Shown here: piece by piece, positions 26,187-39,321 of the stretch
Position numbering within the stretch: the stretch's first letter is position 1
How the letters are laid out: each line of letters begins with the position of its first letter
Assembly (NCBI RefSeq): GCF_020991065.1
Contig: NZ_CP087710.1
Span: forward strand, 3,782,001 to 3,846,000
Source: Nocardioides okcheonensis
GTDB lineage: Bacteria; Actinomycetota; Actinomycetes; Propionibacteriales; Nocardioidaceae
Reading direction: 5' to 3'
Length of the DNA stretch: 64,000 nucleotides
Notes under the pieces: model-generated
The model's database searches: none
What the model saw: only the letters and a program-made list of their open reading frames with translations
What the model was told of the DNA's origin: nothing
Translations under genes and position numbers: made by a program

Positions 26187-27418
26187 ACGAGCTGCACGAC
26201 CTGCTGGCCGGCGCGACCGATCGCGTCGAGAACCCTCGCCTCGAGCACGCGGCGCTCCGGGTCGCGCGGCGTCGGCGCACGCGCCGGCGAGGTGCCGCCG
26301 CGGCGGCGGCCGCGTCCGCCCTGGCCGTGGCGGTCGTCGTCGGCGTCCAGGGCGTGGGTCGCGTCGGCTCGCCCCAGCCGGCCGCCCCCCACGCGCACGG
26401 CGCCCACACCGACCCCACCCCCGCGCCGAGCCCGTCCGTCCGTGACGACGACGTCGCGAAGGTCTGGCCGGAGTGGGATCCCCGCGAGGTCGACCGGCTG
26501 CCGGCCGCACCCGACCGGGTGGCCCCCGCGCTCCCGCGCACGATCGCGCCCCCCGCGTCGTCCCCGCCGCTCGCCGACGCCCCGATCGACGCCGCGGTCG
26601 TCGCGGTGGAGCAGGACGGCGTCGCGCAGGTGCTCGGCAGCGGGGGTGAGTGGCGGACCGTGCCGGTCGCCGGCCGGCACCCCGTCCTCGCGCTCAGCCC
26701 GAGCGGCACCCGGCTGGCGATCTCCTACTACCCCGACGGGGACCCGTCCGGCCACGACTACGGCGTCACGACCTACGACCTCGCCAGCGGCAGTGCTGCG
26801 TACGTCCCCGTCCCGGACGGCTTCGTCCCGCGCGACGACACCGGCTGGTCGTTCCGCGACGACGACACCCTGCTGCTGGTCACCGGCGCCCGGGCGTACG
26901 CCGTCGACGCCGCCTCCGGGGAGACCTCGGAGACGTTCGCCCCGAGCGGGATCGAGTCGACCCTGGACCCCGACGGCGCCTGGCTGACCAGCGCCGACTT
27001 CGACCAGCCCAACGTCCTCACCGACTACGCGGGAGGCGCCCCGCGCGAGGTGAGCATGGACCTCACCGGACGGCTGTCGCGCCTGCAGGCCAACGCGGAC
27101 ACGGTGGTGGGGACGACCTACGACGACCAGCAGTACAGCGTGGTGGTCGCGGACCGCGAGACCCTGACCCCACAGCACCGGTTGCCCGTGCTCGACCCGG
27201 AGGCCAACTACAGCAACTGGGGCCTCAGCACCCTCGCCCTCACCGACGACGGCACCGTCCTGCTGCGCGTGGCGAAGATCGACCGGTCCGGCGGGCACGG
27301 TTCGCGCGTGGTCGCCTGGCGACCCAGCACCGGCGAGCTGTCGGTCGTGAGCACCACCGACCTGACGGTGGAGGCGCTCCTCGTCTACGCCACCGGCGCG
27401 CTCCGCGCGTCCGGCTAG
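26183..27418 (+). CDS. Membrane-anchored extracytoplasmic protein coupled to the sigma gene (possible anti-sigma)
   Basis: 411 residues. A short cytoplasmic head (1-40, MNELHDLLAGATDRVENPRL followed by Arg-rich VARRRRTRRRG) leads to one transmembrane helix (about 41-60, Ala/Val-rich). A Pro-rich linker and about 300 residues of beta-propeller-like repeats follow (VLALSPSGTRLAISYYPDG, WSFRDDDTLLLVTGA, LSTLALTDDGTVLLRVA). The topology (short N-terminal cytoplasmic segment, single helix, large outer domain) and the ATGA coupling fit a sensor or anti-sigma partner of the SigE-type factor. The head lacks a recognisable zinc-binding anti-sigma motif, so the assignment is inferential. Confidence 0.75.
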   Translation: MNELHDLLAGATDRVENPRLEHAALRVARRRRTRRRGAAAAAAASALAVAVVVGVQGVGRVGSPQPAAPHAHGAHTDPTPAPSPSVRDDDVAKVWPEWDPREVDRLPAAPDRVAPALPRTIAPPASSPPLADAPIDAAVVAVEQDGVAQVLGSGGEWRTVPVAGRHPVLALSPSGTRLAISYYPDGDPSGHDYGVTTYDLASGSAAYVPVPDGFVPRDDTGWSFRDDDTLLLVTGARAYAVDAASGETSETFAPSGIESTLDPDGAWLTSADFDQPNVLTDYAGGAPREVSMDLTGRLSRLQANADTVVGTTYDDQQYSVVVADRETLTPQHRLPVLDPEANYSNWGLSTLALTDDGTVLLRVAKIDRSGGHGSRVVAWRPSTGELSVVSTTDLTVEALLVYATGALRASG

Positions 27419-29112
27419 GCCCGGGACCCGCCCAGCGCCCGCCCGACCGCCCGCCCCGAGAAGATGCAGCCGCCGAGAAAGGTGCCCTCGAGCGCGTTGT
27501 AGCCGTGCACCCCGCCGCCGCCGAACCCGGCGACCTCGCCCGCCGCGTACAGCCCCGGGACGGGGGTGCCGTCGGCGGCCAGGCAGCGGCCGTCGAGGTC
27601 GGTCTCCAGGCCGCCGAGGGTCTTGCGGGACAGGATGTTGAGGCGCACGGCGATGAGCGGGCCGTGGGCGGGGTCGAGGATCCGGTGGGGCTTCGCCACC
27701 CGGATCAGCTTGTCGGTGCGGCTGCGGCGGGCGTTGTGGATCGCCATCACCTGCACGTCCTTGCTGAAGTCGTTGGCCACCTCGCGGTCCCGGGCGACGA
27801 TCTCGCGCTCCAGGGACTCGGCGTCGAGCTTCGGCCCCCGCGCCAGCTCGTTCATGCCGGTCACCAGCTCGTCCAGCGAGTCGGCCACGACGAAGTCGAC
27901 GCCGTGCTCCTTGAACGCCTCGACCGGTCCGGGCGCGCCCTTGGCGAGCCGGCTCTGCGCGAGGAACCTGAGGTCCTTGCCGGTGATGTCGGGGTTCTGC
28001 TCCGAGCCCGACAGGGCGAACTCCTTCTCGATGATCGACTGGGTCAGCACGAACCACGAGTAGTCGTGACCGGCGGCGAGGATCTGCTTCATCGCGCCGA
28101 TCGAGTCCGCGCCCGGCACACCGGACATCCCCTCGAGCCGCCTGCCGGTGGCGTCGAACCACATCGACGACGGGCCGGGCAGGATGCGGATCGCGTGGTC
28201 GGGCCAGACCGGGTCCCAGTTGTGGATGCCCTCGACGTAGGCCCACATCCGGTCCTTGTTGACCATCGTCGCGCCGGCCGCCTCCGCGATGCCCTGCATC
28301 CGTCCGTCGACGTGGGCCGGGACGCCGGAGATCAGGTGGTCGGGGGCCGGGCCGACGCGGTCGGTGGGCCAGTTGCGGCGCATCAGCTCGTGGTTGTGGC
28401 CGATGCCGCCGGAGGTCACCACGACGGCGGGGGCACGGAGGTCGAAGTCGCCCACCACGTCGCGGTTCGACCGTACGCCGCGGGCCGCGTCGTCCTCGGC
28501 CAGCACCGCGCCGCGGACGCCGACGACCGCGCCGTCCTCCACCACCAGCTCGTCGGCGCGGTGGCGGAACGCGAAGCGCACCAGCCCGGCCTCCTCGGCG
28601 CGCTGCACCGGCTCGGCGAAGATCCGCACCACCTCGGGGCCGGTGCCCCAGGTGAGGTGGAAGCGCGGCACGGAGTTGCCGTGGCCGAGCGCCCGGCCGT
28701 CCCCGCGCTCGGCCCAGCCGACGAACGGGAGCGAGCGCAGGCCGAGGGCGCGGAGATAGTCGCGCTTCTCCTCGTGGGCGAACCGGACGTACGCCTCGGC
28801 CCACCGCTGCGGCCAGAGGTCCTCGCCGCGGCCGGGGCCGTCGGTGCCGTCGCCGAGCCGGTCGAACTGCGCCGAGCCCTGCCAGTCCTGCCAGGCCAGC
28901 TCGGGGGAGTCCGTGATGCCCATCCGGCGCTGCTCGGGGCTGTCGACGAAGAACAGCCCGCCGAGCGACCACCACGCCTGCCCGCCGAGGTTGGCGCGGT
29001 TCTCCTGGTCGAGCACCAGGACCCGCTTGCCGGCCAGCGCCAGCTCGTGGGTGGCGACGAGGCCGGCCAGCCCGGCGCCGACGACGATCGCGTCGGGGGT
29101 GAAGTCGTTCAT
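27415..29112 (-). CDS. FAD-binding dehydrogenase (KsdD/flavocytochrome c-type)
   Basis: 565 residues. FAD-binding VVGAGLAGLVATHELALAGKRVL (9-31), an FAD_binding_2 core including VTSGGIGHNHELMRRNWP and MVNKDRMWAYVEGIHNW, and the C-terminal GLYAAGEVAGFGGGGVHGYNALEGTFLGG that closes the isoalloxazine site in 3-ketosteroid dehydrogenase/fumarate reductase relatives. The family introduces or reduces C=C bonds; a steroid or other ring substrate is possible but not shown. It overlaps the TetR gene stop (ATGA), so it is the second gene of a TetR-led operon and its likely target. The 3' end overlaps the opposite gene by 4 bp. Confidence 0.9.
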   Translation of the reverse strand: MNDFTPDAIVVGAGLAGLVATHELALAGKRVLVLDQENRANLGGQAWWSLGGLFFVDSPEQRRMGITDSPELAWQDWQGSAQFDRLGDGTDGPGRGEDLWPQRWAEAYVRFAHEEKRDYLRALGLRSLPFVGWAERGDGRALGHGNSVPRFHLTWGTGPEVVRIFAEPVQRAEEAGLVRFAFRHRADELVVEDGAVVGVRGAVLAEDDAARGVRSNRDVVGDFDLRAPAVVVTSGGIGHNHELMRRNWPTDRVGPAPDHLISGVPAHVDGRMQGIAEAAGATMVNKDRMWAYVEGIHNWDPVWPDHAIRILPGPSSMWFDATGRRLEGMSGVPGADSIGAMKQILAAGHDYSWFVLTQSIIEKEFALSGSEQNPDITGKDLRFLAQSRLAKGAPGPVEAFKEHGVDFVVADSLDELVTGMNELARGPKLDAESLEREIVARDREVANDFSKDVQVMAIHNARRSRTDKLIRVAKPHRILDPAHGPLIAVRLNILSRKTLGGLETDLDGRCLAADGTPVPGLYAAGEVAGFGGGGVHGYNALEGTFLGGCIFSGRAVGRALGGSRA

Positions 29113-29735
29113 CGGGTCTCCTGCTCGTAGCGGCTGACGATCATCTCGGCGAGCAGGCGCAGCGCCCGCTCCACCGTGCGGCCCGGTGGTGCCGCGGGGT
29201 CGGGGTCCAGGGCGGAGAAGGCCAGCCCGTCGAGGAAGTTGACGACGATGCTCAGCACCGGGGCGAGGTCGTCGGCCGGCAGCCGGGCGGCCCAGAGGTC
29301 GCCGGCGACGGCGAGCATCCGCTCCTGCAGCGACTCGCGCGCCGGGACCAGCGCGTCGCGGAGGTCGGCGTCGGCGCGGGCGGCCACCAGCAGCTCGCGC
29401 CAGGTCTGGTTGGCGGGGGAGAGCACGGCGGTGCGCAGGTGGGCGAGGACGTCCGTGACCGCGTCGACGCTCGCCACGTCGGAGCCGACCGTCGTGCGGA
29501 ACTCCTCGACGTTGCGCCGCGCGACGTGCTCGGCGGTCGCCACCAGCAGCGCCTGGCGGGTGGGGAAGTGGCGGAACAGCGCGCCCTGGCTGACTCCGGC
29601 GCGCGCGCAGACGGCCGCGGTGGACGTGGCGGCGTACCCGCTCTCGGCCAGGCACGCCGCCGTCGCGTCGAGGAGCGCGGCGATGGTGCCGGCGCGGCGC
29701 TCGGCCTGCGTACGACGGACGGGCGCGGTGGTCAT
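29109..29735 (-). CDS. TetR/AcrR family transcriptional regulator
   Basis: 208 residues with the HTH SGYAATSTAAVCARAGVSQGALFRHFPTRQALLVATAEHV (about 32-70) and an all-helical ligand domain ending RLLAEMIVSRYEQETR. It is the first gene of a two-gene unit with the FAD-dependent dehydrogenase, coupled by ATGA overlap. A 24-bp near-palindrome 16 bp upstream of the ATG is the probable autoregulatory operator, so the effector is likely a substrate of the dehydrogenase. Confidence 0.92.
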   Translation of the reverse strand: MTTAPVRRTQAERRAGTIAALLDATAACLAESGYAATSTAAVCARAGVSQGALFRHFPTRQALLVATAEHVARRNVEEFRTTVGSDVASVDAVTDVLAHLRTAVLSPANQTWRELLVAARADADLRDALVPARESLQERMLAVAGDLWAARLPADDLAPVLSIVVNFLDGLAFSALDPDPAAPPGRTVERALRLLAEMIVSRYEQETR

Positions 29736-31794: not shown

Positions 31795-32735
31795 CTACCG
31801 CGACCCGAGCACGGCCCGACCGACAGCATGGTGCAACGGACGTACGACGCGTCCGAAGGCGATGCCGACGGCCAGCGAGGCCCCCAGCGCGAGCCACGGG
31901 TGGCCGGCGTCCTCGAGTGCGGGGTAGACCTGCCAGTGGGTGAGGTAGATGAACAGGCTCGCGCCCGCGAGCACGCCCGCAGCCCGCGCCAGCCGCGCGG
32001 GCACCGGCACGTGCGGCAGCCACAGCATCAGCAGGAAGCCGCCCAGCACGATCGCCTCGCGGTGCGGCTGGCCGAAGAACCCGACGGTCAGCGCGGTCGC
32101 CAGCGCGGACACGAGCAGGCGGCGCCGGGTGCTGTCAGCCCGGGCGCCCGCCCAGCCGAGCGCGAAGAAGAAGGCCACCACGAGCGTGGTGTAGCGCTCG
32201 GTGTGGCCCGCGCGCAGGCCGACCTCGGCGAATCGCGCGAGCGCGGCGAGCGCGAGCACGGCGAGCGCGAAGCGGAACGGGTCGCGCCGCTCGAGGCGGT
32301 GCAGGGCCGGCACGCAGGTGAGCGCGAGCGCGCCGACGGTGAGCCAGACGAGCGACTCGAGGAACCACAGCTGCCACCGGTCGTCCCACTCCGAGGAGCT
32401 CACCAGCTCGCGCACGAAGAACGTGGTGGCCCAGTCATAGCTGCCGAGGACGAGCGCGACGGTCCCGACCCACAGCACCGACGGCACGACCAGCTGCGAC
32501 AGCCCGGCGAGGCCGTGGCGCAGCCGGACGCCGGCGCCACCGGCGGCGGAGAGCTGGAAGCGGGCGAAGTTGAAGCCGGCGAGGGCCAGCAGCAGGTGGG
32601 CGCCGCCCTCGAGGCGGACCAGGTCGACGTGGCTGGCGACCACGAAGAGGATCGCCAGTGCCCGCAGGGCGACCGTCGTGTCGAGGCGGGCCCAGCGCCG
32701 GCGGGAGCGGACCCGGCCGCGCCCGCCTCGTCGGC
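31795..32735 (-). pseudogene. Acyltransferase-3-type membrane domain, frameshifted continuation of the adenylation/carrier gene
   Basis: About 310 codons in a different frame from the upstream adenylation/carrier gene, with no ATG, GTG or TTG near their beginning. The segment starts RRRWARLDTTVALRALAILFVVASH, the first helix and catalytic-His region of acyltransferase-3 (OafA/NodX-like) proteins. About ten hydrophobic helices follow ([35 protein letters not shown]). The family transfers acyl groups to surface sugars or lipids. It reads naturally as the C-terminal domain of the protein encoded at 32400-34334. Joining them needs a net -1 shift (one base missing) within about 32690-32730, in the linker. 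A true single gene would run 31795-34334. Confidence 0.65.
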
Positions 32736-34334
32736 CAGCCGCTGGAGCTCGCCCACGGTGCGGGTGTGCCAGCCGGCCGGGAGGCCGCCGGGGAGGTGGT
32801 CGGCGAGGCGCGTGGCGAGCTCGACGTAGGACAGCGAGTCGCCGCCGAGGGCGACGAACGAGTCGTCGGGGCCGGCGTCCGGGCGGCCCAGCACGCGCGC
32901 GAAGTCGGCCCGTACGTCCCGGGTCGCGCGGTCCGCGGCCGGCCCGCGGGTCGCGGCCTCCTCGGTCGCGGCGAGCCCGAGCAGCGCGGCGCGGTCGACC
33001 TTGCCGCTGGCGGTGAGCGGATCCTCGGCGAGCAGGTGCACGACGACGGCGTGGGCCGGCACGCCGCACTGGTCGGTGACGAGGGTGCGGGCGGCGCCGC
33101 GGTGCCGCCCGTGGCGCAGGAACACGTGCACGGCGCGGTCGGTCGCGACCACCCGGGCGTGGCGGTCGACCTCGGCGGCGAGGTGGCGCTCGACGGCGTC
33201 GAGGTCGAGGCGCAGGCCGAAGACCTTGCCGTAGCGGTTGCGCCGGCCGACGACCTCGAACAGCCCGTCGACCTCGCGCGCGAGGTCCCCGGTGCGCAGG
33301 TCCTCGACCTCGCGGCCGCGGGCCAGGTCGGCGGGGGCGTGCGCGTAGCCGAGCATCACGTTGGGCCCGGAGTAGCAGAGCTCGCCGACCCCGGGGCGCT
33401 CGTCGACCGACTCGTCGAGCCAGAGCCGGCCGCCGGGCACGGCGACGCCGATCGCGCCGGGGTGGTCCTCGGCCAGGTCGGGCGGCAGCCACGCCATCCG
33501 GGCGGTCGCCTCGGTGGCGCCGTACATCACGACGAGGTCCCAGCCGCGCTCGCGGCCGGTGCGGCTCCAGTGGCGTACGGCCTCGGGCGCGAGCCGTCCG
33601 CCCGCCTGGGTGACCTGCCGCAGCGTCGGGAGGTCGCGGTCGGCGAACCCGCTCGCGTCGAGCAGGTCGAAGGTGTGCGGGACGCCGGCGAGGCTGGTGG
33701 CACCGCTGCGGGCGAAGAGGTCCCAGAAGCACTCGTCGACCACGCTCAGGTCGGTCAGCACCACGCTGGCGCCGGCGACGAGGTGGGAGTGCAGGACCGA
33801 GAGGCCGTAGCAGTAGTGCAGCGGGAGCGCGGTGATCGCGCGGTCGTCGGGGCCGAGACGGAGGTAGTCGGCGATCGCGGCGGCGTTGCTGGCGACGTTG
33901 TCGCGCGAGAGCCGCACCAGCTTGGGCGAGCCGGTGGTGCCGGACGTGCTGAGCAGCAGCGCGAGGTCGGGGTGCAGGTCGTGCGCGCTGGTCGCGCGGC
34001 GCACGTCGTCGGGCTCCCCGGACACGCAGACCACGTCGGGGTCGTAGGCCGCGACCACCGCGTCGCGCTGGGCGGGGCGGGCGTCGGGCACGACGAGGGC
34101 GACGTGGCCGTGCTGGAGCGCGGCGAGGTAGGCGACCAGGGCGTCGAGCCGGTTGGCGCCCTCCACCAGCACGAGCCGTCGCGCCGGACCCCAGGCCCGC
34201 GCGCGGTCGGCGACCCGTCGGGCCAGGTCTGCGTGGCTGAGGGTGCGGTCGCCGACGACCACCGCCGGTGCGTTGCCGGCGGGGGCGTGGTCGAGCACCG
34301 GCCGCGCCGACGGCCGGGTGGGCGTGAGCGTCAC
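32400..34334 (-). CDS. AMP-dependent adenylation domain plus acyl/peptidyl carrier domain (NRPS-like)
   Basis: Residues 1-470 are an ANL-superfamily adenylation domain: LLLSTSGTTGSPKLVRLS (A3, about 127-144), VVMYGATEATARMAW (A5), LRTGDLAREVDGLFEVVGRR (A7/A8) and the A10 lysine in LTASGKVDRAALL. A carrier domain follows (about 455-540) with the phosphopantetheine serine in FVALGGDSLSYVELA. It activates a carboxylic or amino acid as an adenylate and loads it on the carrier. The last 100 or so codons after the carrier are out of frame with the acyltransferase and are probably not native. The GTG at 34334 overlaps the fbpC stop, placing the gene in the iron-regulated operon. The substrate cannot be read reliably. 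Confidence 0.8.
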   Translation of the reverse strand: MTLTPTRPSARPVLDHAPAGNAPAVVVGDRTLSHADLARRVADRARAWGPARRLVLVEGANRLDALVAYLAALQHGHVALVVPDARPAQRDAVVAAYDPDVVCVSGEPDDVRRATSAHDLHPDLALLLSTSGTTGSPKLVRLSRDNVASNAAAIADYLRLGPDDRAITALPLHYCYGLSVLHSHLVAGASVVLTDLSVVDECFWDLFARSGATSLAGVPHTFDLLDASGFADRDLPTLRQVTQAGGRLAPEAVRHWSRTGRERGWDLVVMYGATEATARMAWLPPDLAEDHPGAIGVAVPGGRLWLDESVDERPGVGELCYSGPNVMLGYAHAPADLARGREVEDLRTGDLAREVDGLFEVVGRRNRYGKVFGLRLDLDAVERHLAAEVDRHARVVATDRAVHVFLRHGRHRGAARTLVTDQCGVPAHAVVVHLLAEDPLTASGKVDRAALLGLAATEEAATRGPAADRATRDVRADFARVLGRPDAGPDDSFVALGGDSLSYVELATRLADHLPGGLPAGWHTRTVGELQRLADEAGAAGSAPAGAGPASTRRSPCGHWRSSSWSPATSTWSASRAAPTCCWPSPASTSPASSSPPPVAPASGCATASPGCRSWSCRRCCGSGPSRSSSAAMTGPPRSSCASW

Positions 34335-35410
34335 GTCAGCGCGGGGGGAGCGGCGGGGCGGTAGGCGCGGACCAGGCCGGTCACGCGGAGGTGCACGGTG
34401 TCGCCGGTGGCCGGGTGGCGTACGCCCGCCATGCGGGCGAGGACCGACGTGCCGTCGTCGAGACGGACCTGCACGGCGCAGTCGTGGCCGTAGTAGCTGA
34501 GCTCCTCGACCGTGCCGCGGACGCCCTCGGCGTGGGCGAGGTCGACGTAGATCTGCTCGGGGCGGATCATCAGCGACACCGGTCCGGAGCCGGGCTCGGT
34601 GAGGACCACCTCGCCGAGCGCGCACTGCGCGCGGCTCGCGGTGGCGGTGCCGGGGAGGACCACGGCGCGGCCGACGAACTCCGCGACCTGCGGGTCGGAG
34701 GGGGAGAGGTAGACCTCGCTCGGGCTCGCCGACTGCACCAGCCGGCCCGAGCGCATCACCGCGACCTGGTCGGCGAGGGACAGCGCCTCGTTCTGGTCGT
34801 GGGTGACGAGCAGCGCGGTCGTGTTGCTCGCCGCGAGGGCGCGGCGCACGGCCAGGGAGGTGGTGCCGCGCAGGCTGGCGTCGAGGGAGGAGAACGGTTC
34901 GTCCAGCAGCACCACCGCGGGCTTGGGGGCGAGCGACCGGGCGAGGGCGACCCGCTGCTGCTGGCCTCCGGAGAGCTCGTCGGGGCGACGGTGCCGGAAG
35001 TCGGCGGGGAGCTCGACGAGGTCGAGCATCTCCGCGACGCGGTCGTCGCGCTCGCGCCCGCGCTCCTCGCGCGGCAGGCCGAAGGCGATGTTGGCGGCGA
35101 CGTCGAGGTGGGGGAACAGCGCGCCCTCCTGCGGGACGTAGCCCACCCGGCGCACCTGCGGCGGCATCGGCTTCACGCCGTCGCCGGCGACGACGGTGTC
35201 GCCGAACGCGATGGTGCCGGCGTCGGGCAGCAGGAAGCCCGCGATCAGGCGCAGCAGGGTCGTCTTGCCGCAGCCGGACGGGCCGAGGACGGTCGTGAAC
35301 GACCCGTGCGGGACCTGCAGCGACACCTCGTCGACGGCACGCGTGGACGTACGGCCGGGGCCGCCCGCCGCGAACGTCTTGGTGACGCCGGTGATCGTCA
35401 GGGAGCTCAT
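34331..35410 (-). CDS. fbpC: Ferric iron ABC transporter ATP-binding protein
   Basis: 359 residues. Walker A GPSGCGKTT (about 43-51), Q-loop VPQEGALFPHLDVAANIAFG, signature LSGGQQQRVALARSLA, Walker B VVLLDEPFSSLD, switch His in LLVTHDQNEA, and a C-terminal TOBE domain (MIRPEQIYVDLA). It powers import by the FbpB permease. It is coupled by ATGA overlap to fbpB and by GTGA overlap to the adenylation gene. Confidence 0.92.
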   Translation of the reverse strand: MSSLTITGVTKTFAAGGPGRTSTRAVDEVSLQVPHGSFTTVLGPSGCGKTTLLRLIAGFLLPDAGTIAFGDTVVAGDGVKPMPPQVRRVGYVPQEGALFPHLDVAANIAFGLPREERGRERDDRVAEMLDLVELPADFRHRRPDELSGGQQQRVALARSLAPKPAVVLLDEPFSSLDASLRGTTSLAVRRALAASNTTALLVTHDQNEALSLADQVAVMRSGRLVQSASPSEVYLSPSDPQVAEFVGRAVVLPGTATASRAQCALGEVVLTEPGSGPVSLMIRPEQIYVDLAHAEGVRGTVEELSYYGHDCAVQVRLDDGTSVLARMAGVRHPATGDTVHLRVTGLVRAYRPAAPPALT

Positions 35411-36948
35411 GGGGTGGCCTCCTGGAGGGAGAGTCGCTCCTGCCGCATGAGCAGCACCGTCGCGGGGATCGAGACGAGCACCAGCAGGAGGGCGTAGGGG
35501 GCGGCTGCTCCGTAGCGGAGCTCGGAGGACGCCGACCAGAACTCGGTGGCCAGGGTCCGGGTGCCGATCGGGGAAAGCATCAGCGTGGCGGTCAGCTCGG
35601 TGGAGATGGCGAGGAACACCAGTGCGGCGCCGGCGCCGAGGCTGGGGGCGATGAGCGGCAGGGTGACCCGGCGCGCGGTGGCGAGCGGCCCGGTGCCGAG
35701 GCTGTGGGCGACGTCGTCGAGCACCGCCGGGGCCTGCTCCAGCCCGGCGCGGACGGTGACGACCGCACGTGGGAGGAAGAGGATGACGTAGGCCGCCACG
35801 AGCAGCGCGGCGGTCTGGTAGACCGGCGGCACGAGGCGCAGCGACGCGACCACGAGGGCCAGGCCTACGACGATGCCGGGCAGGGCGTTGGCGACGTAGG
35901 TGCTGCGCTCGATCAGGGTGGAGACCCGTCCGCGGTGGCGCACCGCGAGCCAGACGACCGGCACGGCGGCCACGGTCGCCGCGATCGCGCCGGCGAGCGC
36001 GAGGACGACGGTGGCGACCAGGGCCTCGGTGAGGTCGGCGAGCGGGAACTCGGTCGAGGTGCCCACCACGAGCCAGCGCACGAGGGACCAGGCCGGGACG
36101 CCGACCGCCAGCGCCACCACGCCGGCGAGGACCCCGAGCGTCGGCCAGCGCCACGCCCCGAGGGACAGCGGCACGCTGCTCCGGGCCGCGCCGCGTCCGA
36201 CCCGGGCGTACCGACGGTCGCCGCGCAGCCGCAGCTCGGCGAGCAGCAGGACGAGGCAGAGCAGGACCAGCACGCCGGCCATCGCGGTCGCGGCGGCGCC
36301 GTTGAAGGTCGAGCCGTACTGGTCGTAGATCGCGGTCGTGAAGGTCGGGAAGCGCAGCAGCGACAGCGCACCGAACTCCGCCAGGAGGTGGAGGCCGACC
36401 AGCAGCGCACCGCCCAGCAGCGCCGGGCGCAGCTGAGGCAGCACGACGGTCGCCAGCGTGCGGGCGCGGGAGTGCCCGAGCGACCACGCCGACTCCTCCA
36501 GCGCCGGGTCGAGCCGGCGCAGCATCGCGACCACGGGCAGGTAGACGAGCGGGTAGTAGGACAGCGTCACGACCAGGAACGCCCCGCCGAAGCCGTGGAC
36601 GCTGCGGTCGAGCGAGACCCAGGCGTAGCCGTTGACGAACGCCGGGACCGCGAGCGGTGCGACGAGCAGGCCGTGCCAGGCGCGCCGCCCCGGCAGGTCG
36701 GTGCGCTCGACGAGGACCGCCAGCACGACGCCGAGGGCGGCGGTCGCGGCCATGCAGGCCCCGGCGAGGGTGAGGGTGTTGCGCAGCAGCTCGCCGATCC
36801 GCGGGCGGGCCAGGAGCTGCCAGAGGTCGACGGGGCCGATCACCACGACGTAGGTCGCGACGTAGCCCAGCGGGACGAGCGCGAGCAGCGCGACGACCGC
36901 CCCCGCTGCCAGCAGCAGGGGCGGTGTGCGGCGCTCGGTGGCGCTCAG
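35407..36948 (-). CDS. fbpB: Ferric iron ABC transporter permease (two fused halves)
   Basis: 513 residues if started at 36948. Two homologous halves of about six helices each carry the EAA-type loops LEESAWSLGHSRARTLATVVLPQLRPALLGG and LDDVAHSLGTGPLATARRVTLPLIAPSLGAG that contact the ATPase, as in FbpB/SfuB. The start is odd: no ATG, GTG or TTG occurs in frame between the preceding gene and the first transmembrane helix. The best candidate is a CTG overlapping the fbpA stop (CTGA), the same overlap geometry as its neighbours. An internal GTG near 36845 would remove most of helix 1. Located in the cytoplasmic membrane. Confidence 0.9.
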   Translation of the reverse strand: MSATERRTPPLLLAAGAVVALLALVPLGYVATYVVVIGPVDLWQLLARPRIGELLRNTLTLAGACMAATAALGVVLAVLVERTDLPGRRAWHGLLVAPLAVPAFVNGYAWVSLDRSVHGFGGAFLVVTLSYYPLVYLPVVAMLRRLDPALEESAWSLGHSRARTLATVVLPQLRPALLGGALLVGLHLLAEFGALSLLRFPTFTTAIYDQYGSTFNGAAATAMAGVLVLLCLVLLLAELRLRGDRRYARVGRGAARSSVPLSLGAWRWPTLGVLAGVVALAVGVPAWSLVRWLVVGTSTEFPLADLTEALVATVVLALAGAIAATVAAVPVVWLAVRHRGRVSTLIERSTYVANALPGIVVGLALVVASLRLVPPVYQTAALLVAAYVILFLPRAVVTVRAGLEQAPAVLDDVAHSLGTGPLATARRVTLPLIAPSLGAGAALVFLAISTELTATLMLSPIGTRTLATEFWSASSELRYGAAAPYALLLVLVSIPATVLLMRQERLSLQEATP

Positions 36949-37973
36949 AGCAGTCCGGCCTCGGTCATCAGGTCGGTGACCTGCGGGCCGTTGAGGCTCG
37001 CCACGTCGACCTGCGGCGGGTCGAGCTCGTCGAACGGCTTCACGTCGGGGTTGAGGCTCGCGTCGGGGTTGAGCGGGTACTCCAGGGCGTACGACTCGGC
37101 CATCGCCTGCTGGGCCTCGGTGCCGGTGAGCCAGGTGATGAACTCCTCGGCGGCGTCCTGGTGCTCGCTGCTGGCGAGCATGCCGGCGCCGGAGATGCTC
37201 ACGAACGCGCCGGGGTCCTGGTTGCCGAAGAAGTGGAGCGCGGAGCTGTCGGAGTCCGAGCCGTTCTCCTCTCGGTCGCGGTACCAGTAGTAGTGGTAGG
37301 CGATGCCGGCGTCGACCTCGCCGGAGTCGACGGACTGCATGACGACGAGGTTGTTCTGGACGATCTCGCCGTTCTCCTTCAGCCCGGCCAGCCAGTCGGC
37401 CGTGGCCTGCTCGCCCTCGAGCTCGAGGACGGCGGAGACGATCGCCTGGAAGTCGGCACCCGTCGGCGAGAAGGCGACGCGGCCCTTCCACTCGGGCTTC
37501 GCGAAGTCCAGGATCGAGGCGGGCATGTCGGCCTCGGTCATCGAGTCCGTGTTGTACATCGCGACGGTCGAGCGGGCGAGGAAGCCGGTCCACGTCCGGT
37601 CGGCCGGGACGTACTGGTCGGGGATCGTCGCGGTCGCGCTGTCGGGCAGCTCGGCGAACAGGCCGGCGTTGTCGACGATGCTCATGGCCGGGGAGTTCTC
37701 GGTGAGGAACACGTCGGCGGGGGAGTCCTCGCCCTCCTCGACGATCTGGTTGGCCATCTCGAGGTCCTTGCCGTTGCGCAGCTCGACGTCGAGGCCCGAC
37801 TCCTCCTCGAACAGCGGCACCAGCTCGTCGAGCAGCTGCTCGTGCTGGGCGTTGTAGACGACCAGATCGGGGGAGCTGAACAGGCCGCACCCGGTCAGGG
37901 TGGAGGCGGTCAGGGTGACCGCGGCCAGCGAGACGGCGGCGCGGCGCAGGGTCGGACGCGAGGAAGACGACAC
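36945..37973 (-). CDS. fbpA: Iron ABC transporter substrate-binding lipoprotein
   Basis: 342 residues. A lipoprotein signal ends TLTGC (Cys29), then LVVYNAQHEQLLDELVPLFEEESG, the start of family-1 ferric-binding proteins. DADVFLTENSPAM-like and GIAYHYYWYRDREENG segments follow; the paired tyrosines of the latter (YHYYWY) are the usual Fe(III) ligands. It captures ferric iron outside the membrane and delivers it to FbpB. The GTG start has AGGA 8 nt upstream, and an IdeR/DtxR-like iron box sits 14 bp beyond, so expression should be repressed by iron. Confidence 0.92.
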   Translation of the reverse strand: MSSSSRPTLRRAAVSLAAVTLTASTLTGCGLFSSPDLVVYNAQHEQLLDELVPLFEEESGLDVELRNGKDLEMANQIVEEGEDSPADVFLTENSPAMSIVDNAGLFAELPDSATATIPDQYVPADRTWTGFLARSTVAMYNTDSMTEADMPASILDFAKPEWKGRVAFSPTGADFQAIVSAVLELEGEQATADWLAGLKENGEIVQNNLVVMQSVDSGEVDAGIAYHYYWYRDREENGSDSDSSALHFFGNQDPGAFVSISGAGMLASSEHQDAAEEFITWLTGTEAQQAMAESYALEYPLNPDASLNPDVKPFDELDPPQVDVASLNGPQVTDLMTEAGLL

Positions 37974-37987
37974 GAGGGATCCTTTTG

Positions 37988-38006
37988 TTTGCTTAGGCTC
38001 ACCTAA
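37988..38006 (-). promoter_or_regulatory. IdeR/DtxR iron box of the fbp operon
   Basis: TTAGGTGAGCCTAAGCAAA on the minus strand matches the consensus TTAGGTTAGGCTAACCTAA at 15 of 19 positions, including both conserved half-site cores, 14 bp before the fbpA start. Confidence 0.78.
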
Positions 38007-38085: not shown

Positions 38086-38103
38086 GGTTAGCGATCGCTA
38101 ACC
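38086..38103. promoter_or_regulatory. Perfect 18-bp palindrome before the acyl-CoA dehydrogenase
   Basis: GGTTAGCGATCGCTAACC is perfectly self-complementary and, allowing a 1-nt bulge, extends to CCGAG/CTCGG. It ends 8 bp before the -10 at 38112, in the -35/spacer region, a repressor position typical of TetR-family lipid regulators. Confidence 0.7.
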
Positions 38104-38124: not shown

Positions 38125-39321
38125 ATGACCTTCGAGCTGTCCCCCGAGCACGAGCAGTTCCGCCGCAGCGTCCGCGACTTCGCCGAGGCCGAGATCGCCC
38201 CGCACGCCGCCCAGTGGGACCGCGACCACCACTTCCCGACCGACGTCGTGCAGAAGATGGGCGCGCTCGGGCTGATGGGCCTCACCGCGCCGGAGGAGTT
38301 CGGCGGCGCCGGGATGGCCGGGGAGGACGGCGGCTTCACCTCGCTGTGCCTGGCGATCGAGGAGATCGGGCGGGTCGACCAGTCGATGGGCATCACGCTC
38401 GAGGCCGCGGTCGGGCTGGGCATCAACCCGATCCTCACCTACGGCACCGACGAGCAGAAGAAGACCTGGCTGCCCGACCTCGTCGCCGGCGAGAAGCTGG
38501 CCGGCTTCGGCCTCACCGAGCCCGGTGCCGGCTCCGACGCCGGGGCGACCCGCACCAAGGCGGTCCTCGAGGACGGCGAGTGGGTCGTCAACGGGGCCAA
38601 GCAGTTCATCACCAACTCCGGCTCCTCGATCACGTCGGTCGTGACGGTCACCGCCCGCACCGGCGAGCGCGCCGACGGCCGCCCGGAGATCTCGACGATC
38701 ATCGTCCCGTCCGGGACGCCCGGCTTCACCGCCGAGAAGGCCTACGACAAGCTCGGCTGGCACGCCTCCGACACCCACCCGCTGTCCTTCTCCGACGCCC
38801 GCGTGCCGGAGTCGAACCTGCTCGGCGAGCGCGGTCGCGGCTACGCCCAGTTCCTCGCCACCCTCGACGACGGCCGCGTCGCGATCGCCGCGCTCGCGGT
38901 CGGCTGCATCCAGGCCTGCCTCGACCTGTCGCTGCAGTACGCCGGCGAGCGGCAGACCTTCGGCGGCCCGATCGGTCGCAAGCAGGGCCTCGCCTTCCAG
39001 GTCTCCGACCTGCAGGTCATGCTCGACGCCTCGCGCCTGCTGACCTACAAGGCGGCTGCCATGAAGGACGCGATGGACGCCGGCAAGGACGTCTCGATGG
39101 CCGCCTTCAAGCAGGCTGCCGCCGTCGCCAAGCTCTACACCACCGAGTCGGCCGTGACCGCGACCCGCATCGCCACCCAGGTCTTCGGCGGCTACGGCTT
39201 CATGGAGGAGTACCCGGTCGTCCGGTTCTACCGCGACGCCAAGGTGCTCGAGATCGGCGAGGGCACCTCCGAGGTCCAGCGGATGCTCATCGCCCGGGGG
39301 CTCGGCCTGCCGGTCGAGTGA
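38125..39321 (+). CDS. Acyl-CoA dehydrogenase
   Basis: 398 residues. FAD/substrate motifs FGLTEPGAGSDAGATRT (about 128-144) and AKQFITNS, the C-terminal helical domain with RQTFGGPIGRKQGLAFQVSDLQ, FGGYGFMEEYPV, and the end segment EIGEGTSEVQRMLIARGL carrying the presumptive catalytic Glu (LEIGEG). It introduces the alpha-beta double bond in acyl-CoA thioesters and passes electrons to ETF. A perfect operator-like palindrome upstream suggests fatty-acid-responsive repression. It is transcribed alone; a 49-bp palindromic repeat follows 12 bp after the stop. Confidence 0.95.
   Translation: MTFELSPEHEQFRRSVRDFAEAEIAPHAAQWDRDHHFPTDVVQKMGALGLMGLTAPEEFGGAGMAGEDGGFTSLCLAIEEIGRVDQSMGITLEAAVGLGINPILTYGTDEQKKTWLPDLVAGEKLAGFGLTEPGAGSDAGATRTKAVLEDGEWVVNGAKQFITNSGSSITSVVTVTARTGERADGRPEISTIIVPSGTPGFTAEKAYDKLGWHASDTHPLSFSDARVPESNLLGERGRGYAQFLATLDDGRVAIAALAVGCIQACLDLSLQYAGERQTFGGPIGRKQGLAFQVSDLQVMLDASRLLTYKAAAMKDAMDAGKDVSMAAFKQAAAVAKLYTTESAVTATRIATQVFGGYGFMEEYPVVRFYRDAKVLEIGEGTSEVQRMLIARGLGLPVE

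Follow-up and report, generated by a model that had tools for sequence, protein, structure and literature searches.

A conserved, apparently iron-controlled module of FbpABC and an adenylation-carrier-acyltransferase-3 enzyme in Nocardioides okcheonensis and other Actinomycetes

The stretch of DNA considered here (the window) comprises 64,000 nucleotides of Nocardioides okcheonensis, positions 3,782,001 to 3,846,000 of contig NZ_CP087710.1, and carries on its minus strand an operon in which the ferric-iron importer genes fbpA, fbpB and fbpC are followed by an enzyme built of an adenylation domain, a carrier domain and an acyltransferase-3 (AT3) membrane domain. The reading that we favour, at about even chances, is that of a conserved, apparently DtxR/IdeR-controlled ferric-iron module, in which FbpABC is joined by a dedicated one-chain enzyme that would give FbpA its ligand. 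Documented below at the level of sequence are the gene content of the module and its iron box, the co-occurrence and linkage of importer and enzyme, and the catalytic residues.

FbpABC-type importers take up ferric iron and, to our knowledge, it is unclear how insoluble Fe(III) is delivered to the binding protein in Gram-positive bacteria. The families of all the parts are known. What appears to be new is their combination, the tie of the enzyme to FbpA in the class, and an AT3 domain fed by a carrier, the product and the mechanism being predictions. The original prediction, made from the letters of this DNA, knew of no described system with this composition, and our searches of the open-licence literature, some of them narrow, likewise found no description of it.

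Co-occurrence and linkage with FbpABC

Among 58 relatives, an orthologue of the adenylation-carrier part (E below 1e-70) is present in 30, and in 28 of these FbpA lies within the fetched flank. The two others are G030, where fbpC adjoins the enzyme on a 3-kb contig, and G005, which has FbpA elsewhere. A draw of 296 genomes from the class gave 50 matches to the adenylation-carrier part at E ≤ 1e-60. Four of these (G137, G152, G188 and G218) have no AT3 in the fetched flank, which leaves 46 genomes with both parts, about one sixth of the draw, from 19 genus codes and 15 family codes.

FbpA (E ≤ 1e-30) was found in 83 of the 296 genomes, namely in all 46 with the enzyme and in 37 of the 250 without it (Fisher p 2.4e-31). 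At the genus level, where the genera are not fully independent, the corresponding numbers are 19 of 19 and 22 of 95 (p 1.2e-10). The genes fbpA, fbpB and fbpC all lie within ca 8 kb of the enzyme in 38 of the 46 genomes, in several orientations. The other eight genomes, among them G209 with its short contig, all have a complete fbpABC elsewhere.

The importer and the enzyme do not seem to descend as one fixed pair. An FbpA tree was built by a quick method from 82 sequences (38 linked to the enzyme, 8 unlinked, and 36 of the 37 from genomes without the enzyme, G137 being missing). The linked FbpAs are scattered over separate deep clades in this tree. The linked label has to change 11 times on it, and well-supported branches force 7 of these changes. 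FbpAs of only 37–39% identity accompany enzymes of 55–63% identity; for loci L129 and L112, for example, the enzymes are 63% identical and the FbpAs 38%. In three further relatives (L055, L069 and L070) a distant FbpA of 30–31% identity is nearby. The enzyme thus seems to follow function and not one particular FbpA sequence, in that the FbpABC lineage is exchanged while the enzyme is kept.

One such exchange can be seen in Nocardioides solisilvae (L034 and L106), where a distant fbpABC lineage has been swapped in, with the enzyme gene and the flanking genes on either side left as they were. Compared to the window, the identities there are 36% for FbpA, 42% for FbpB and 46% for FbpC, 65% for the adenylation-carrier part, and 91 and 83% for the two flanks.

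Clustering of the neighbouring genes at 102 loci plus the window places the enzyme at 92 loci, FbpA at 81, FbpB at 77 and FbpC-like proteins at 76. The next clusters, with at most 27 loci, look by eye like flanking genes that close relatives have in common, or like families of scattered occurrence, and beyond FbpA, FbpB and FbpC no partner recurs widely at these loci. As a separate observation, nine loci of one genus (L112, L114, L115, L118, L120, L121, L122, L125 and L126) have the module beside genes that by eye resemble the zinc-uptake gene znuA and a gene for a regulator of the Fur/Zur type, as if metal-uptake genes cluster around the module in that genus.

Iron boxes in the window and at other loci

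The predicted DtxR/IdeR-type operator lies in the fbpA promoter, at 37988–38006 on the minus strand, and reads TTAGGTGAGCCTAAGCAAA towards fbpA. It agrees at 16 of 19 positions with the better of two consensus variants and, by hand count, at 15 of 19 with the second, which is the value given in the original prediction. Allowing at most three mismatches, the pattern TTAGGTTAGSCTAACCTAA has four sites in the 4.47-Mb, one-contig genome, and the reversed-pattern control has none. The second site is directly upstream of a Peripla_BP_2/FecCD gene pair for uptake, the third is directly upstream of a pyridoxal decarboxylase gene, which has an IucA/IucC match at a distance of ca 3.7 kb, and the fourth precedes a ferritin gene by ca 290 bp, an open frame of 74 aa lying between the two (loci L213, L214 and L216 for the three). 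Since there are four sites compared to none in the control, and all four are near iron genes, the box ahead of fbpA is more than chance.

One DtxR-family protein scores above the Pfam cut-off in this genome, and by its score (NF053665, 347.5 bits with a cut-off of 290) it is the actinobacterial iron-dependent repressor DtxR. From these sequence data, the fbp-enzyme operon is apparently under DtxR/IdeR iron control.

The boxes were next counted across loci, at 13 or more matching positions of 19. In a first scan, in which some genomes are counted twice and divergent neighbours share promoters, boxes were found at 72 of 81 FbpA promoters, at none of 77 FbpB and none of 92 FbpC-like promoters, at 44 of 95 enzyme-cluster genes (genes behind fbp and some nonribosomal peptide synthetase (NRPS) genes included), and at 36 of 833 other genes. 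In a second scan of the class sample, 35 of 38 linked FbpA promoters have a box. For the enzyme genes themselves, the box is present at 26 of 29 with their own promoter, at 7 of 8 unlinked to fbp, and at 3 of 17 that lie behind an fbp gene. The same scan of all 89 loci, with one genome present twice, gave 49 of 58, 13 of 17 and 5 of 31, respectively, and 60 of 72 for the FbpA promoters, while random 400-bp segments of the same loci have a box in 135 of 5340 cases. Judging from the unlinked genes (7 of 8 and 13 of 17), an enzyme gene that has left the operon usually keeps its iron box.

The operon and its enzyme

We now turn our attention to the genes themselves, all of them on the minus strand. 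The first, fbpA (36945–37973, GTG start), encodes a ferric-iron-binding protein by its Pfam SBP_bac_6/8 matches and its best PDB matches (8k7n, YfuA 1xvx and SfuA 1xvy, with E of ca 1e-104 to 1e-102). It is probably a lipoprotein, with an LTGC lipobox by eye, and a lipobox-like motif is present in 72 of 81 FbpAs. The protein has H44, E92, Y228 and Y229, which we take to be the iron ligands. The Tyr pair is kept in all 82 FbpAs, while of the 38 linked ones 28 have the His and 28 the Glu, so that the His/Glu pair is not universal.

The importer partners of FbpA are, by Pfam, a permease encoded by fbpB (35407–36948, two stretches of BPD_transp_1) and an ATP-binding cassette ATPase with a TOBE domain encoded by fbpC (34331–35410, ATG start, ABC_tran and TOBE_2). 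For fbpB, a CTG within the overlap with fbpA (36945–36948) is by eye the only fitting start codon, there being no ATG, GTG or TTG well ahead of the first membrane helix. The enzyme follows with an ANL-type adenylation domain (32970–34334, GTG start at 34334, Pfam AMP-binding, 3' limit approximate), a PP-binding carrier domain with the phosphopantetheine Ser (32778–32918, 35.3 bits with a cut-off of 20.8), and the AT3 membrane domain (31795–32700, Acyl_transf_3, 43.3 bits with a cut-off of 31). Successive genes share 4-bp overlaps, read from the sequence as CTGA for fbpA/fbpB, ATGA for fbpB/fbpC and GTGA for fbpC and the adenylation-carrier frame, and both the gene order and the overlaps agree with the original prediction.

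That prediction also had the last frame leading into the AT3 domain. The AT3 domain is indeed present, but here it is not in the same frame as the adenylation-carrier part. The two frames stop at 31795 (AT3) and 32400 (adenylation-carrier), and the sole ATG, GTG or TTG of the AT3 frame near the start of the domain, a GTG at 32643, falls between the conserved Arg and His. The window's two pieces were accordingly searched separately, with the frame left unmended. A single chain of 848 aa, P0003, is 99% identical to the window across the adenylation-carrier part, and among the 120 best matches listed, of 7801, there are 115 that combine AMP-binding with Acyl_transf_3 on a single chain. Of the 46 genomes of the class sample that have both parts, 44 show an open frame of at least 845 aa with no stop within the match, the exceptions being the window's genome and G282, which has one TGA.

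The split in the window looks from these comparisons like a frameshift, due to a genuine lesion or to an error in the sequence, and a programmed frameshift is not supported because the relatives read one frame. The AT3 piece alone matches 105 proteins in a search whose admitted length range excludes 850-aa fusions; 30 of these retain PP-binding, several bear the label partial, and the rest may be pieces at contig ends, split genes or true stand-alone proteins. The enzyme of Nocardioides daphniae (G022, L071) is also split by frame changes, in that case inside the adenylation domain, with P0251 as a 494-aa acyltransferase.

In 66 chosen sequences, the core catalytic residues, the phosphopantetheine Ser of the carrier and the AT3 motif R549-X10-H560 are present in all 66. 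An R/K-X10-H motif and about ten transmembrane helices are among the hallmarks that PMC9558356 gives for AT3 proteins, and the model of the orthologue P0004, which has a mean pLDDT (predicted local distance difference test) of 92, shows about ten long helices. The AT3 piece has no PDB sequence match up to E 5.

For the adenylation domain, the best-scoring sequence match is linear gramicidin synthetase. Aligned to it with an ambiguity of two residues, the position that would bind the amino group is C166 or G168 in P0004, neither of which is Asp. The pocket, as it can be read from this alignment, is one without the Asp typical for alpha-amino acids. This is the one usable feature of the adenylation-domain code, which via PDB alignments yields no substrate. 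A fold comparison of P0004, with rows that span residues 1–450 and include no AT3 structure, so that the AT3 part is outside it, names no acid either, because its top matches, which are CoA ligases for ferulate, oxalate, succinylbenzoate, benzoate, coumarate and malonate as well as NRPS adenylation domains and DltA, are all within ca 3 Z units of each other.

Two features of the surroundings can be mentioned here. Directly upstream of a divergent acyl-CoA dehydrogenase gene (38125–39321) there is a perfect 18-bp palindrome, GGTTAGCGATCGCTAACC, at 38086–38103, which looks like an operator for a regulator other than DtxR. Further away, at 27415–29735, a FAD-dependent dehydrogenase-like gene and a TetR-like gene (29109–29735), both named by eye, share a 4-bp overlap.

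Predicted function, alternatives and known systems

The following mechanism would be consistent with the domains. Under iron starvation, the adenylation domain would activate a carboxylic acid other than an ordinary alpha-amino acid, and the acyl-AMP formed would load the carrier domain of the same enzyme. The AT3 domain would then take the acyl group from the carrier, and not from CoA, and hand it on to an acceptor that lies either at the membrane or outside it. As the most speculative step, the product would be an extracytoplasmic Fe(III) ligand, either secreted or held at the surface, that captures ferric iron and presents it to FbpA. Taken as a strategy for iron capture, in which a carrier-fed AT3 exporter-transferase puts Fe(III)-binding groups on the surface or on a minimal secreted ligand and thereby feeds FbpABC, the proposal is tentative, and we hold it with clearly less than even confidence. 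As far as we know, this would be the first AT3 protein to be supplied with its acyl group by a carrier in the same chain. That AT3 proteins move acyl groups across the membrane is described in PMC9558356.

A number of results weigh against a ligand made for FbpA. According to the part of PMC9558356 that deals with the donor, acyl-CoA is favoured over a carrier protein. FbpA occurs without the enzyme in 37 genomes of the class sample, and the enzyme is consequently not needed for import as such; in 15 of these genomes, searched at a looser threshold, no match to the enzyme went below E 5e-25. The neighbour clustering of the 102 loci and the window has no widely recurring exporter family. IucA/IucC, the synthetase of NRPS-independent siderophores (NIS), coexists with the enzyme in 29 of the 46 genomes, and is found in 88 of the 250 without it. 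Because of this coexistence the enzyme is no simple replacement for NIS, and the replacement of classical siderophores was rejected as its general role.

Outside the class, the tie between the enzyme and FbpABC is clearly weaker. In a draw of 296 genomes from the phylum, nine genomes that do not belong to the class gave a match. Among these, G523 has no AT3 in the flank and no FbpA at E ≤ 1e-20, which leaves eight with the adenylation-carrier part and AT3. Only two of these (G453 and G378) are linked to fbp, five have FbpA elsewhere, one of which (G549) is on a 6-kb contig that cannot display linkage, and in G600 a search at E ≤ 1e-20 found no FbpA. An upstream box of at least 13/19 is present in four of the eight (L202, L204, L205 and L206), and L207 starts at a contig edge. 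The scattering of the fusion without fbp genes, which the original prediction had named as contrary evidence, is thus not seen in the class, where all 46 genomes have FbpA, though unlinked in eight, but is partly seen beyond it. The control by iron scarcity and the tie to ferric uptake that were predicted hold likewise, as far as boxes and co-occurrence can tell, within the class, and the tie is weak outside.

The alternative that survives best, although we consider it unlikely, is that the enzyme acylates a glycan of the wall or membrane at low iron and in this way alters the charge or permeability near FbpA, with a Dlt-like purpose and with no ligand being made. PMC9558356 describes AT3-only proteins that acylate surface glycans, succinylation included. 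At L152 (6909–9311), a relative of the adenylation domain with 44% identity and no AT3 belongs to a cluster for the biosynthesis of sugars that contains Polysacc_synt_2 and DegT/DnrJ genes, nucleotide-sugar genes and a short-chain reductase, and it is adjoined by a short protein that by eye is acyl-carrier-like (no Pfam hit). At three Nocardioides-like loci that have the enzyme without fbp (L035, L064 and L144), a gene that by eye is glycosyltransferase-like directly follows that of the enzyme. These sequences keep a surface-glycan target open. On the other hand, the tuning of the envelope by itself leaves the co-occurrence with FbpA in 46 of 46 genomes unexplained, and no glycan gene is widely recurrent at the loci.

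A further option is that FbpA, or one of the other Fbp proteins, is itself what the enzyme acylates. FbpA is lipoprotein-like and, in the class, always accompanies the enzyme, but the exchange of partners described above, in which FbpAs of 37–39% identity go with much more similar enzymes, and the 37 genomes that have FbpA and lack the enzyme make this very improbable. That an acyl enzyme of unrelated function has come to lie beside fbpABC by chance would fit the weak linkage outside the class (2 of 8), but is hardly credible considering the co-occurrence (p 2.4e-31), the linkage, in several orientations, in 38 of 46 genomes, these 46 coming from 15 family codes, and the iron box kept by seven of the eight unlinked copies.

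Returning to the proposal of a ligand for FbpA, the enzyme is never without FbpA in the sample of Actinomycetes and has the same type of iron box, which makes the delivery of Fe(III) testable via its product. If the proposal is true, an AT3 transferase would be fed by a carrier arm and not by CoA. Nocardioides, Lentzea, Actinoplanes, Couchioplanes, Mycolicibacterium and others might then prove to make a metallophore or surface modification not known before, and the module would indicate that the capture of iron by bacteria has a step not yet described.

It remains to compare the module with known systems. The AT3 family (PF01757) is recognised by the Pfam match and the R-X10-H motif, but the window-type enzyme has its AT3 fused behind adenylation and carrier domains. 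In PMC9558356, the members treated include OafA/OafB, ExoH and MdoC/OpgC, with SGNH as the commonest fusion and acyl-CoA as the supported donor. The adenylation and carrier domains resemble those of NRPS modules, and NRPS and NIS systems are likewise iron-regulated, but by Pfam there is no condensation or IucA/IucC domain in the operon; the IucA/IucC match of this genome lies elsewhere.

The Dlt system has a D-alanine-type adenylation domain with the Asp for the amino group, an MBOAT transferase (DltB), and DltD. The original prediction saw a resemblance to it, and this stands as a matter of logic only, since the transferase here is AT3 and not MBOAT, the enzyme is one chain, the Asp for amino acids is lacking, and no partner of the Dlt type or any other recurs widely beyond fbpABC. 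The operon has no MBOAT Pfam match, and DltD is not widely recurrent at the loci, no genome-wide search for it having been made. The FbpABC, SfuABC and HitABC importers have in common with the module a binding protein of the YfuA/SfuA class, a permease of two stretches and a TOBE ATPase, and it differs from them by the dedicated adenylation-carrier-AT3 enzyme that is joined to the importer here.

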